Below, piece after piece: positions 1 to 21,171 of a stretch of 21,171 nt of DNA. Each line of letters opens with the position of its first letter. The first letter of the stretch is position 1. The DNA lies in IMG/VR virus record IMGVR_UViG_3300035703_000445, positions 1-21,171 of that record. One strand, written 5' to 3'. The notes under the pieces are model-generated. The model saw nothing but the letters and a program-made list of their open reading frames with translations, was not told the origin of the DNA and did not search any database. A program made the position numbers and the translations under genes. The DNA comes from a virus.

Positions 1-36
1 AGATACAAGCACTGATGAGAAGAATGAATTAAAAAC

Positions 37-212
37 TCATTCGTGATTAGATAAGATTCGTATAGAAACTTATTCTTAAGAATCACTGATGATAAAGAAC
101 TCAAAAGTTCATTCGTGATTAGATAAGATTCGTATAGAAAGATAATACTGCGACACCATTGTGAGATTATAATCACAAAGTCATTCGTGATTAGATAAGA
201 TTCGTATAGAGA
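37..212. repeat. Three 32-bp direct repeats at exact 72-bp period
   Basis: Copies lie at 37-68, 109-140 and 181-212. Each begins TCATTCGTGATTAG and ends ATTCGTATAGAAA. Copies 1 and 2 are identical over 32 bp, and copy 3 differs only at its next-to-last base. The two spacers (69-108 and 141-180) are exactly 40 bp and differ from each other, though both end in similar CAAA(A)G tails. The repeat has no obvious internal hairpin, but each spacer or flank contains a short inverted repeat: TTCTTAAGAA at 73-82, TTGTGA/TCACAA at 159-164/173-178 and GAGATTC/GAATCTC at 209-215/226-232. The geometry resembles a small CRISPR array or a set of iterons. No cas gene is in the window, so this is called only as a repeat array. 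Confidence 0.9.
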
Positions 213-252
213 TTCGAAGTTATCAGAATCTCAAAGCAATCATAAGAAGAGA

Positions 253-284
253 AAATTCGTTTATAATTCAAGTTCGTTATGGGG
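253..284. repeat. Decayed fourth copy of the 72-bp-period repeat
   Basis: This block starts exactly 72 bp after the third copy. It keeps both core hexamers of the repeat in register: ATTCGT at 255-260 and GTTCGT at 272-277. By hand alignment it matches the consensus at 16 of 32 positions. It is too diverged to be certain, but the conserved phase supports common origin and would be the degenerate end of the array. Confidence 0.45.
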
Positions 285-360
285 CAGATACTTGACGGGC
301 ACTGCAAGGTCTGATAGAATTGACCAGTAGAGTTTATTCGTTCTTTCGGTTCTTTAACTT

Positions 361-528
361 ATGGCAATTTCTTCTCCCAAGGCACAAAAGAATAAGTATC
401 GTATCACTCTTGAATTAAACGTGAATGAAGATTTTAATCCTCATCAGATTCAGTGGAAGAAACTGTTCGGGTTAGACAGTAAAGAATCAGTGAAGAGTTA
501 TGTAGAAGATCTCAATGCTCCTTGGTGA
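361..528 (+). CDS. Small conserved cyanophage protein (55 aa)
   Basis: The frame runs from ATG 361 to TGA 526-528 and encodes 55 residues beginning MAISSPKAQKNKYRITLELN and ending in EDLNAPW. The first part is basic (Lys, Arg) and could form a short beta strand (YRITLELNV, about residues 13-21). The second half is mixed and likely helical (IQWKKLFGL, SVKSYVEDL). There is no signal peptide or membrane segment. No clear ribosome binding site precedes the ATG; the leader is pyrimidine-rich. I recall similar small proteins next to baseplate genes in T4-like cyanophages, but no function is known to me. It stands alone between the repeat array and the hairpin-rich region. Confidence 0.75.
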   Translation: MAISSPKAQKNKYRITLELNVNEDFNPHQIQWKKLFGLDSKESVKSYVEDLNAPW

Positions 529-4023: not shown

Positions 4024-5940
4024 ATGTCCCTCACAAACTTTTCTAATCTGGATTTTGATCAGATTAAGACAACCCTTAAAGCATACTTAAGATCAAATTC
4101 TAATTTTACAGACTATGATTTTGAGGGATCCAATCTATCTACGATTCTAGATGTCTTGGCGTACAATACGTACATTACATCTTATAATGCAAATATGGTT
4201 GCAAATGAGGTCTTCATTGATAGTGCAACTTTAAGAGAAAATGTAGTTTCTCTCGCAAGAAATATTGGATACATCCCAAGATCAAGGAAAGCATCTAGAG
4301 CAACGGTTAGTTTTTTTGTAGATCTTACTGGGGAAGCAAACGTATCATCTTTAACTCTCAAAAAAGGAGTTGTTGCATCAACAACAAGAACCTTTGGAAA
4401 TCAATCATTTGTTTTTTCAATATTAGAGGATATAACCAAACCCGTCTTCAATAATATTGCGACTTTTAATGATATTGAAATATATGAAGGTTCTCTGGTA
4501 ACATCTAAATTTACATATAGTTCAAATAATCCAAATCAAAAGTTTATATTACCAAACTCCGGAATTGACACAAGTCTTCTTTCGGTAGAAGTAACAAGTA
4601 GCGATATAAAAACAAAATATTATTTGCATAATAATATTTTTGATGTATCAAAAGATTCTAGAGTTTTCTTTCTGCAGGAAGTAGAAGATGAGAGATATGA
4701 ATTAATCTTTGGTGATGGAGTTTTCGGAGCAGCACTTAATGATGGAGATGAAATTACTGCTTCCTATATTGTTTCAAATGGAAGTTCAGCAAATGGAATA
4801 TCCCAATTTTCTTTTGCTGGAATATTAAACTATATTTCAACCAATGCACCAGTTATTGTAACTTCAGGAATATCTTTATTATCTACTGGATTAATTTCTT
4901 CCGGAGGAGAAGAAATTGAAAGTGTTGAATCAATTAGAAAATATGCACCCAGAATATATTCATCACAAAACAGGGCAATAACATCTAATGACTATGAATC
5001 CTTGGTTAAAAATGTTATATACCCAGAGACTGAATCTATTTCCGTATTTGGTGGTGAAGAATTAGTTCCTCCACAATATGGAAAAGTATTCATTAGTATC
5101 AAACCAAGAACAGGTGACTTTTTACCTAATATAACAAAAGAAAATATTAAATCAAAATTAAAATCATATGCAGTTGCTGGAATTGTTCCAGAAATATTAG
5201 ATTTAAAATACCTCAATATTGAAGTTGATTCCAAAGTTTATTATAATACAAATCTTTCATCAAATCCAAATGATGTTTTGACTCAAATACAAAATAATGT
5301 GGAAAGATATGCAGATTCTACAGAACTTAATAAATATGGTGCCAGATTTAAATATAGCAAATTCTTAAAAATAATAGACGAAAGTCATCGTTCAATCACT
5401 TCAAATATTACCAGAATTTCAATAAGAAGAGATGTAAGAGTAGTATTAAATGCATTTGCAACTTATTCAATAGGGTTTGGTAATAGATTTAACATTAATA
5501 ATCAAAGTGGATATAATATAAGATCATCTGCATTTAAAATTTCTGGAATAACAGAACAGGTTTATATATCAGATATTCCTGGTTCAAATCAAACAACAGG
5601 ATCTATATTTTTATTCACTCTACCAAGCTCAACTTCAACTATACCAACTATAGTGAGAAGAAATGTTGGAACAATTGATTATGAACAAGGAATAATTAAT
5701 ATAAATCCGATTAATATAACATCTACAGAAAAAATTATAAACGGACAATCTGTAATTCAAATCTCAGCAACGCCAAAATCAAATGATGTGATTGGACTTC
5801 AGGACTTGTATTTACAACTAGATAGTAGTAACAGTTTATTTGAAATGGTGATTGATGAGGTTTCTTCTGGATTAGATCCCTCTGCTTCAAACTTCATAGT
5901 ATCTTCAAGTTACACAAACGGAAACTTAGTACGACTCTAA
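4024..5940 (+). CDS. 6: Baseplate wedge subunit gp6 (baseplate J family)
   Basis: At 638 aa this is close to T4 gp6 (660 aa), which forms the ring connecting the baseplate wedges and belongs to the baseplate J superfamily. Residues 18-90 carry the expected N-terminal helical part (FTDYDFEGSNLSTILDVLAY, then ENVVSLARNIGYIPRS). The J-type core is seen in YELIFGDGVFGAALNDGDEI (about 225-244), and IRKYAPRIYSSQNRAITSND (304-323) is the typical motif before the dimerising region. The C-terminal beta-rich part is more variable. It starts at the base after the gp25 stop with no separate ribosome binding site, which implies coupling. Six bases separate it from the giant gene. Confidence 0.95.
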   Translation: MSLTNFSNLDFDQIKTTLKAYLRSNSNFTDYDFEGSNLSTILDVLAYNTYITSYNANMVANEVFIDSATLRENVVSLARNIGYIPRSRKASRATVSFFVDLTGEANVSSLTLKKGVVASTTRTFGNQSFVFSILEDITKPVFNNIATFNDIEIYEGSLVTSKFTYSSNNPNQKFILPNSGIDTSLLSVEVTSSDIKTKYYLHNNIFDVSKDSRVFFLQEVEDERYELIFGDGVFGAALNDGDEITASYIVSNGSSANGISQFSFAGILNYISTNAPVIVTSGISLLSTGLISSGGEEIESVESIRKYAPRIYSSQNRAITSNDYESLVKNVIYPETESISVFGGEELVPPQYGKVFISIKPRTGDFLPNITKENIKSKLKSYAVAGIVPEILDLKYLNIEVDSKVYYNTNLSSNPNDVLTQIQNNVERYADSTELNKYGARFKYSKFLKIIDESHRSITSNITRISIRRDVRVVLNAFATYSIGFGNRFNINNQSGYNIRSSAFKISGITEQVYISDIPGSNQTTGSIFLFTLPSSTSTIPTIVRRNVGTIDYEQGIININPINITSTEKIINGQSVIQISATPKSNDVIGLQDLYLQLDSSNSLFEMVIDEVSSGLDPSASNFIVSSSYTNGNLVRL

Positions 5941-18344: not shown

Positions 18345-18350
18345 ACAATT

Positions 18351-21171
18351 ATGTCTCAGCAAACTAATTTAAACGTATCTCCATATTTTGATGATTTTGA
18401 TGCAAATAATGATTATTATAGAGTACTATTTAAACCTGGATATCCTGTCCAAGCTAGAGAGTTAACAACATTACAATCAATACTACAAAATCAAATTGAA
18501 AAGTTTGGGCAACATTTCTTCAAAGATGGTGCAAAAATCATACCAGGAAATACAACTTATACTGACATTTATCATGCAGTAGAACTTGAAAATACTTACT
18601 TGGGAATTCCAGTTTCATCTTATGCAGATCAATTAATTGGAACTAAAATATCTGGTCTAACATCGGGAGTTACTGCAATTGTAACTAATGTTCTATTACC
18701 ACAATTTTCCGAAAGAGGAAATTTGACTCTATATGTCAATTATTTACAAGCAAGCACTGTAGATAATTTTTCAGAAACATTTCTTGATGGTGAACTATTA
18801 AAATCAGATGAAATTGTAATAACGCAACTATTAGGTACAACCAATATTGCAATAGGAGAGCCGTTTGCTTCATTAGTTGCAAGAAATGCTACTTCTATTG
18901 GTTCTGCTTTTTCTGTTAATGATGGCGTTTATTTTATTAGGGGATATTTTATAAATGTAAAGAAAGAAACTTTAATACTCGATCAATATTCCAATAGACC
19001 AAGTTATAGAATAGGGTTCTTTGTAAATGAAGAGATTGTAAACTCAAATATAGATGAAAATTTAAACGATAATTCTCAAGGTTTTAATAATTATTCATCA
19101 CCGGGGGCAGATAGATTAAAAATATCAGTTTCTTTATTTAAAAAATCTTTAGATGATACTGATGATAGCAATTTTATAGAAATTGCCACAGTCAAAAACG
19201 GGATAATTAAATTTAAAAACGATACCTATACACAATATAATTTATTATCTGATGAATTTGCAAGAAGAACTTATGATGAGTCTGGAGATTATTATATTAG
19301 ACCCTTTAATATTTCTGTAAAGGAATCTTTAAATGACAATTTAGGAAATAATGGCGTATTTCCTCCAAACACATTTACTGATGGCGGTTCTGTTCCGTCA
19401 GAAAATTTATCTTTATATCAAATTTCTCCAGGAAAAGCATATGTGAGAGGATATGAAGTTGATGTTATAAGTTCTACTCTTTTAGATGTGCCGAAACCAA
19501 GGCAAACAAAAACTATAGAACAGCAATCATTAATTTATAATACGGGTTCAACACTAAGACTTAATAGAGTCTATGGTGCTCCAAAAGTGGGAATCGGAAA
19601 TACATATGTTATAAGTCTTAGAGATTCTAGAGTAGGAGTATCTTCCCATATTGCTCCCGGAAAAGAAATCGGGTTAGCTAGAGTCTATGATTTTAGATTA
19701 GAGTCTGGTTCATATGACTCATCAAATTCGCAATTGAATGAATGGAATATTTCTCTTTTTGATATACAAACAGTAACAGAAATTACCGTAAATGAGTCAG
19801 TAACATTAAACATTCCAACATTTGTAAAGGGAAAAAGTACTGGAGCAACTGGATTTTTAAAAGAAAATGTCAATTCAAGCAAATCATTAGTTCTTTACCA
19901 AACAACAGGAAACTTTTCTTTAAATGAAAGTTTAATATTTGATGGCATAGAAAGTAATAGAGTTTCCACAGCAGTCACTTCATATGGATTTTCTGATGTG
20001 AAATCTTTGTATGGAGTAGTTGGAACTGGAAATACTTTCACTGCGGATGTAATTCAATCTGCGAAGTTTAATGTTGGAGTTGCAAATGTAACTCAATCAA
20101 GCAGTGGAATTAGTACAATTACCAGCACAAATCCATTATTTCCAGGAAAAATTGTAAAAAATGGTGATCTGTTAAAATACACAGATTCCAGATTTTCTGT
20201 TCCAGTATTTGTAAAAGTAGAAGAAAAAACAAATACTTCAATATCAGTATCGGGAATAACAACGGTTGCAAATATATGTGAAGGAAGTTTGCCTTTACAA
20301 GACTTATATGTTTCCGATTTGCAAGTATTGCATACAACTTTAGAATCTTCATCGGATAATACATTATATACAAAACTCCCCAAAAATAATATTTCAAATG
20401 TAAATTTAGCAGATGCTTCTTTAACTATAAGAAAAACATATAATACTGGAATTAGTATATCTTCAAATGAATTAACAACGATAGTTGCTGATTCTAATGA
20501 ATTCTTCTTACCTTTTGATGAAGAAAGATACTTATTGGTAAGATCTGATGGTTCTATAGAACCATTAAGTACAGATAAAGTAAAAATAAACGGAAATACT
20601 TTAGAAATTAAAAATTTAGGTTCATATGATCCAAGTCCAACATTAGTTGCTACTTTAAGAAAAATAAATCCAAAAGAGAAAATTAAGAAAAAAAATAGAG
20701 TAAAAACAATAAATGTAAATAAATCAATTTATGAAGGTTCAGGAACTGGTGAAGATACTTTAAATAATGGATTAACATATGGAAATTATCCATATGGAAC
20801 TAGAGTTGAAGATGATATTATTTCTCTAAATGAACCTGATATTATAGAAGTTCATGGAATTTATGAGTCAAGAGATACTGGAGAGGCATATGCTCCTTCA
20901 ATGAGTCTTGCATCTATTAGTGGTCCATCTACAAAAACATCCGATTTGGTAATCGGAGAGAGTCTGTCCGGACAAACAAGCGGAGCAATAGCTATTGTTG
21001 TTGGATTGAAATCTGATAATGAAATTTATTATATTACAAAAAACAATACTTCATTTGTTGCTGGAGAGCAATTGTTATTTGGAGAATCTGGAGTTCTAGC
21101 TTCTATTGTAGATCTTCAGGGTGGAGATAAAGAAATAACATCACATTATACACTCAATCCCGGACAAAAAT
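18351..21171 (+). CDS. DUF4815-type virion structural protein, 3' end outside window
   Basis: The frame is open from ATG 18351 to the window edge (940 codons checked by hand, no stop), so the gene is cut by the window. The N-terminus (NVSPYFDDFDANNDYYRVLF, KPGYPVQARELTTLQSILQN, then HFFKDGAKIIPGN) is the hallmark of DUF4815 proteins of T4-like cyanophages and other large myoviruses. LYQISPGKAYVRGYEVDV near residues 355-372 is a second hallmark. Later parts are beta-rich with SGxTSGAxAxV-like repeats (for example GKSTGATGFLKEN and ESLSGQTSGAIAIVVG). DUF4815 proteins are virion components; a baseplate-peripheral or fibre-attachment role is inferred from position after gp8. It may be the functional counterpart of T4 gp9 or gp10, but no direct similarity is claimed. 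Confidence 0.9.
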   Translation, partial: MSQQTNLNVSPYFDDFDANNDYYRVLFKPGYPVQARELTTLQSILQNQIEKFGQHFFKDGAKIIPGNTTYTDIYHAVELENTYLGIPVSSYADQLIGTKISGLTSGVTAIVTNVLLPQFSERGNLTLYVNYLQASTVDNFSETFLDGELLKSDEIVITQLLGTTNIAIGEPFASLVARNATSIGSAFSVNDGVYFIRGYFINVKKETLILDQYSNRPSYRIGFFVNEEIVNSNIDENLNDNSQGFNNYSSPGADRLKISVSLFKKSLDDTDDSNFIEIATVKNGIIKFKNDTYTQYNLLSDEFARRTYDESGDYYIRPFNISVKESLNDNLGNNGVFPPNTFTDGGSVPSENLSLYQISPGKAYVRGYEVDVISSTLLDVPKPRQTKTIEQQSLIYNTGSTLRLNRVYGAPKVGIGNTYVISLRDSRVGVSSHIAPGKEIGLARVYDFRLESGSYDSSNSQLNEWNISLFDIQTVTEITVNESVTLNIPTFVKGKSTGATGFLKENVNSSKSLVLYQTTGNFSLNESLIFDGIESNRVSTAVTSYGFSDVKSLYGVVGTGNTFTADVIQSAKFNVGVANVTQSSSGISTITSTNPLFPGKIVKNGDLLKYTDSRFSVPVFVKVEEKTNTSISVSGITTVANICEGSLPLQDLYVSDLQVLHTTLESSSDNTLYTKLPKNNISNVNLADASLTIRKTYNTGISISSNELTTIVADSNEFFLPFDEERYLLVRSDGSIEPLSTDKVKINGNTLEIKNLGSYDPSPTLVATLRKINPKEKIKKKNRVKTINVNKSIYEGSGTGEDTLNNGLTYGNYPYGTRVEDDIISLNEPDIIEVHGIYESRDTGEAYAPSMSLASISGPSTKTSDLVIGESLSGQTSGAIAIVVGLKSDNEIYYITKNNTSFVAGEQLLFGESGVLASIVDLQGGDKEITSHYTLNPGQK

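Follow-up and report, generated by a model that had tools for sequence, protein, structure and literature searches.

The origin oriE of phage T4 contains evenly spaced direct repeats that are syntenic in related phages and are accompanied by an early-mode promoter (PMC3016281). A functional phage-encoded CRISPR array has been reported for a Nostoc cyanophage (PMC4916379). Iteron-type plasmid origins, such as R6K gamma, are built of directional repeats that are restricted to one locus and are associated with AT-rich DNA. Plasmid iterons are usually spaced by about two helical turns, and palindromes are the targets of many phage regulators. To our knowledge, it is unsettled where replication starts in cyanomyoviruses and which proteins time their early promoters.

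Here we describe an array of direct repeats in a 21,171-nucleotide stretch of viral DNA (hereafter the window; positions 1 to 21,171 of IMG/VR record IMGVR_UViG_3300035703_000445). The baseplate genes downstream identify the source as a T4-type cyanomyovirus, and the nearest annotated genomes belong to the Kyanoviridae. The array shares with oriE its evenly spaced direct repeats, a T4-type phage as carrier, a location near an early promoter and a position upstream of baseplate gene 6, but the oriE repeats are ~12 bp long, spaced by 24 bp and lie inside gene 5, whereas the array consists of ~28-bp cores with two half-sites, placed at 69–73 bp in non-coding DNA. The 24-bp repeats of T4 (L153 3403–3570, gene 5) are in frame and resemble codon-level protein repeats; they could reflect repetition in the protein and not be iterons. 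Similarly to plasmid iteron origins, the repeats are directional, locus-restricted and found together with AT-rich DNA, the same intergenic region also holding DnaA boxes in some phages; however, no Rep initiator gene was identified adjacent to the array, and its units are separated by about seven helical turns. Activating or operator arrays of phage promoters also present repeated sites that end at a set distance from a promoter of the sigma70 type, but the present sites are direct instead of palindromic and number up to five or more units at 72 bp. Finally, the repeat and spacer geometry is at first sight like that of the Nostoc cyanophage CRISPR array, from which the locus differs by its conserved spacers, of which spacer 1 matches only its own locus, and by the absence of Cas1 from nine array-bearing contigs.

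The initial annotation had described three near-identical 32-bp blocks 72 bp apart, and their coordinates and identity were confirmed (Table 1). The spacing is exactly 72 bp; copies 1 and 2 are identical over 32 bp and copy 3 has a single substitution, at position 31, leaving a 30-bp block that is common to all three. Exact repeats in the window reach 32 bp, as compared to no more than 19 bp among 100 first-order Markov shuffles, and the pattern TTCGTKATTAG-N4-9-TTCGTAT occurs at only three places in 21 kb and 0 times in the 100 shuffles. The unit itself can be written as TTCGTKATTAG-N6-TTCGTAT, that is, a pair of TTCGT half-sites at a distance of 17 bp within a conserved core of ~28 bp. A fourth block does follow in exact register; it had been likened to the degenerate end of a CRISPR array, but it is instead a promoter-proximal unit that is conserved as such across clades and that lies one period past the last full unit in other array-bearing phages too. 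Further copies had been suspected to the left, and indeed an additional one is present 72 bp upstream in relatives; the window begins in its spacer. Contigs start in or beside the array in three members of the clade (position 1 in the window, L012 and L015), which probably reflects assembly breaks at the repeat. Within each core, TGATTAGATAA (window 43–53 and the equivalent place in other units) provides a stop codon in every forward frame, so that the array is not translatable end to end.

Table 1. Features of the repeat array and the adjoining promoter and gene (window coordinates)
Feature	Position	Strand	Remarks
Unit 0 spacer, core missing as the contig begins here	1–36	+	L034–L054: same spacer, core 72 bp upstream
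Unit 1 core	37–68	+	Half-sites TTCGT 40–44, 57–61; common block 37–66
Spacer 1	69–108	+	Kept within the clade, unrelated to other spacers
Unit 2 core	109–140	+	Half-sites TTCGT 112–116, 129–133; common block 109–138
Spacer 2	141–180	+	
Unit 3 core	181–212	+	Half-sites 184–188, 201–205; common block 181–210
Spacer 3	213–252	+	
Promoter-proximal unit	253–284	+	TTCGT 256–260 (184 + 72) and 273–277 (201 + 72); TATAAT after first half-site
Sigma70-type promoter TTGACG-17-TAGAAT	292–320	+	First base of the -35 lies 19 bp past that of the last TTCGT
55-aa gene, phrog_12516	361–528	+	PHROG E = 2e-20

When the repeat was looked for in relatives, using a looser pattern and the 55-aa gene as a handle, it was present at the same place in about 30 related cyanomyovirus contigs of IMG/VR, which are genome fragments and come from related phages that are not independent samples. 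The arrays of these relatives contain 2–6 full units with a period of 69–73 bp, always upstream of the 55-aa gene and in the same orientation. Sixteen other IMG/VR stretches contain the exact 30-mer, in 14 cases as three copies at 72 bp; one contig (L014, the same as L042) carries a single exact copy and two degenerate ones, one unit having been lost. Units are gained and lost whole, as seen from L071, where two identical units stand side by side, and from L042 with its one unit fewer. Direct comparison at the DNA level gave no match to isolated phages, and an exact 25-mer of the repeat core is absent from genome_contigs; a host origin of the repeat was rejected as far as this exact search can tell. 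The literature searched contained no publication on the array. In nine array-bearing contigs of 41–156 kb, the exact 12-bp left half of the core occurs only in the array, and matches with one mismatch outside it are isolated and near the level of a reversed-pattern control.

The cores and the spacers have evolved very differently. In a profile of 57 distinct units TTCGT and TTA are invariant and the second CGT is kept at 81–91%, whereas the spacer has near zero information; within arrays, the cores are 71–100% identical and the spacers 23–50%, where chance gives 30%. Between the orthologous arrays of L034 and L047 the cores are 92–100% identical and the spacers 69–92%, and in comparisons with L046 and L065 three of four cores are still 92–96% identical while most spacers are near chance. 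The site sequence is thus conserved above the surrounding DNA, and the 69–73 bp period is retained despite spacers that have no sequence in common. Of the two processes proposed by the initial annotation, selection and recent duplication, the latter alone does not account for identical cores next to unrelated spacers. The constraint appears to fall on DNA sequence and phase, as in binding sites for one protein.

The array is also coupled to a promoter. A TTGAC[AG]-17-TA promoter precedes the 55-aa gene in 16 of 16 representative phages, and in 15 of them the last TTCGT starts 16–20 bp upstream of the -35 element, a distance reached in ~0.5% of shuffles per phage, although the 16 representatives share ancestry and their spacing does not amount to 16 independent events. 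In L061–L064, L071 and L072 the array extends about one more period before the promoter and the final distance is unchanged. The core-versus-spacer conservation, the fixed period and this fixed promoter distance support direct repeats that bind protein, which had been among the original candidates together with iterons. Judging from these sequence patterns, the array probably represents direct-repeat candidate binding sites for one sequence-specific phage or host protein and ends at the early-type promoter of phrog_12516. The period of 69–73 bp is close to seven helical turns, placing the units on almost the same side of the helix, and all copies are oriented like the gene, which agrees with this reading; the directionality of the sites, on the other hand, is unlike the palindromic targets mentioned above. 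One protein would occupy the units, probably in a cooperative manner by forming a filament or a loop, and the promoter-proximal unit would let the bound protein contact or block RNA polymerase, by which the array would switch the phrog_12516 promoter during infection. The same promoter may also supply a primer or unwinding for a replication origin in the intergenic region. As a conserved, promoter-coupled and locus-specific element, the array could provide a 72-bp bait for a regulator or initiator, as well as a defined fragment for an origin test.

Several other explanations were weighed against protein-binding sites. That each unit is itself a promoter, making the array a series of tandem activator-dependent promoters, is suggested by the TATAAT inside the promoter-proximal unit and by most of the divergent arrays, in which one unit has TATAAT ~14 bp downstream of where the second half-site begins; this is nonetheless highly improbable, since a -10 element is not consistently present at that place among the near-identical units of the window, the information content is near zero downstream of the core and a promoter scan gives none within the window array. 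A mini-CRISPR array without cas genes would account for near-identical repeats with regular, unrelated spacers, but orthologous spacers occur in the same order throughout the clade of the window, which is the very outcome by which the initial annotation proposed to refute this candidate. The search of spacer 1 for foreign targets likewise returned only its own locus, a degenerate pattern of this spacer matching 11 viral contigs, all at the array. Furthermore, Cas1 was not found in nine array-bearing contigs of 41–156 kb, which are incomplete genomes, the repeat core was not found in genome_contigs, and the final unit is coupled to a promoter, leaving CRISPR with hardly any probability. Transcription of the array into a tandem structured RNA or an RNA sponge would fit the perfect hairpins in several spacers and the strong promoter-like site immediately ahead of the array in L047, L061, L064 and L065. 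Yet 54 distinct spacers fold no better than their shuffles (mean z -0.26, p<0.05 in 4 only), some hairpin arms are disrupted by substitutions within the clade and Rfam gives no match at the array, which makes the suggested tandem regulatory RNA very unlikely. The spacer hairpins, striking by eye, were accordingly dropped as conserved elements after failing the shuffle comparison, and ARAGORN found no tRNAs or tandem tRNA remnants, which had been considered as 72 nt is the length of a tRNA.

The intergenic region may contain a replication origin, and by analogy with oriE, the nearest precedent, this reading is a serious one. It would make the array the iteron cluster of a phage origin like T4 oriE, beside an AT-rich unwinding element and DnaA boxes, a possibility that we hold only tentatively. 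It is compatible with the promoter-linked reading, since T4 oriE, too, requires an early promoter. Gene 6 is 1.7 kb downstream of T4 oriE and 3.8 kb downstream of the array, and the repeats of the array are directly oriented and confined to one locus. An AT-rich unwinding element is found nearby: the intergenic 60-mers rank among the least stable 0.014–0.3% of five genomes, of which G001 bears the array, the element being ~720 bp upstream of its first unit. TTTTCCACA is the cyanobacterial DnaA box (PMC5987646), and of the 33 exact boxes present in 16 records, 12 are located upstream of the 55-aa gene, in 0.9% of the bases, with a nominal P of 1e-16 that ignores shared ancestry and concerns boxes noticed before testing; elsewhere in the genomes of these records exact boxes are rare. 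The densest DnaA-box cluster of the genome is at the locus in S-SM2 and G001, and such clusters occur in a subset of phages that includes the array-bearing L034, L058, L061 and L065. In these four and in S-SCSM1, TATTAAAAAACATATATGAGT with at most one mismatch from the consensus stands beside the boxes, and in G001, S-SCSM1 and S-SRM01 no other site in the genome matches the consensus better than the copy at the locus. P-TIM68, though its 55-aa gene is 13 kb away, retains a similar region ahead of a glycosyltransferase-like gene and gp25, comprising an AT-rich element and two DnaA boxes as an inverted pair. Against an origin, many array phages are without DnaA boxes, and among six held-out Kyanoviridae a local cluster is present only in the lake phage DSL-LC02 (1/6), by which the DnaA module was also discarded as a universal cyanophage feature. 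GC-skew extremes coincide with the locus in 0 of 5 genomes. The locus is not ori(uvsY), and homology to this T4 origin was rejected, as ~47 kb separate the locus from uvsY in G001 and S-SM2. Even in T4 the iterons have no established role (PMC3016281).

The intergenic region ahead of the 55-aa gene measures ~1.1 kb in L034 and L058. The preceding small ORF is directly followed by the AT-rich TATTAAAAAACATATATGAGT, which has no more than one mismatch in several clades, and in some phages then by two to three DnaA boxes; after these come a leftward promoter-like block (GATCTTGG...), in many cases a late-type TATAAATA, and then the array. The succession of TATTAAAAAACATATATGAGT and a DnaA-box trio lies ~1092–1030 bp ahead of the 55-aa gene in L034 and at 36368–36430 in G001; it is common to marine and array-bearing phages, with a patchy distribution.

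The 55-aa protein has 65 relatives in IMG/VR and no Pfam match, and its structural model (pLDDT 81) has no match in the PDB. As the product of the adjacent gene it was the sole candidate initiator examined, and no DNA-binding fold is visible in its model. A role as ribbon-helix-helix autoregulator of its own array was rejected on the same AlphaFold model, which comprises one short helix only, and on the lacking PDB match. The protein is also encoded in phages that have no array, which counts against protein-binding sites serving this gene.

Different lineages use unrelated motifs at this one position, again beside promoters, namely TTCGTKATTAG at 72 bp in the group of the window, CTAGATTC in G010 and G011, and TCTCGACGAG in S-SRM01; several marine phages have only DnaA boxes there. 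Eight of the 11 copies of CTAGATTC in G010 lie within 260 bp upstream of the 55-aa gene, and 7 of the 8 in G011 within 290 bp upstream of it. The CTAGATTC family, often in the form AACTAGATTCNCAT, is on one strand in L091 and L094 (G010 5558–5813, G011 18350–18641). In S-SRM01, ten copies of TCTCGACGAG are concentrated in 5.4 kb with none elsewhere in 241 kb; five are just upstream of the 55-aa gene, and one sits inside the spacer of a TTGCAT-17-TATAAT promoter. The TCTCGACGAG copies are directional (L025 2742–2905, corresponding to S-SRM01 85569–85731, and further at 88204, 88243 and 90907–90997). The replacement of motifs at the same position points to a rapid turnover of protein–DNA specificity. 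It is rather unlikely, although conceivable, that the region is a cyanomyovirus origin whose initiator sites are swapped wholesale between lineages, always before the same gene; if true, origin specificity would evolve by the replacement of iteron/initiator pairs, like that of plasmid incompatibility groups.

Additional elements accompany the locus. Homing-endonuclease-like ORFs, by eye of the GIY-YIG or HNH type, are found between the preceding small ORF and the array in L004, L003, L017 and L009. GAACTTTCCTACGGGRYCAAAAG is conserved upstream of the array in L004, L009 and L058, and lies on the opposite strand near 3730 in L025 (S-SRM01). Within the window, CTACCCTAACCTACA is located at 926–940, upstream of a glycosyltransferase-like gene, and it recurs in the distant cyanomyoviruses L159 and L158 and, in a shortened form, in L144.
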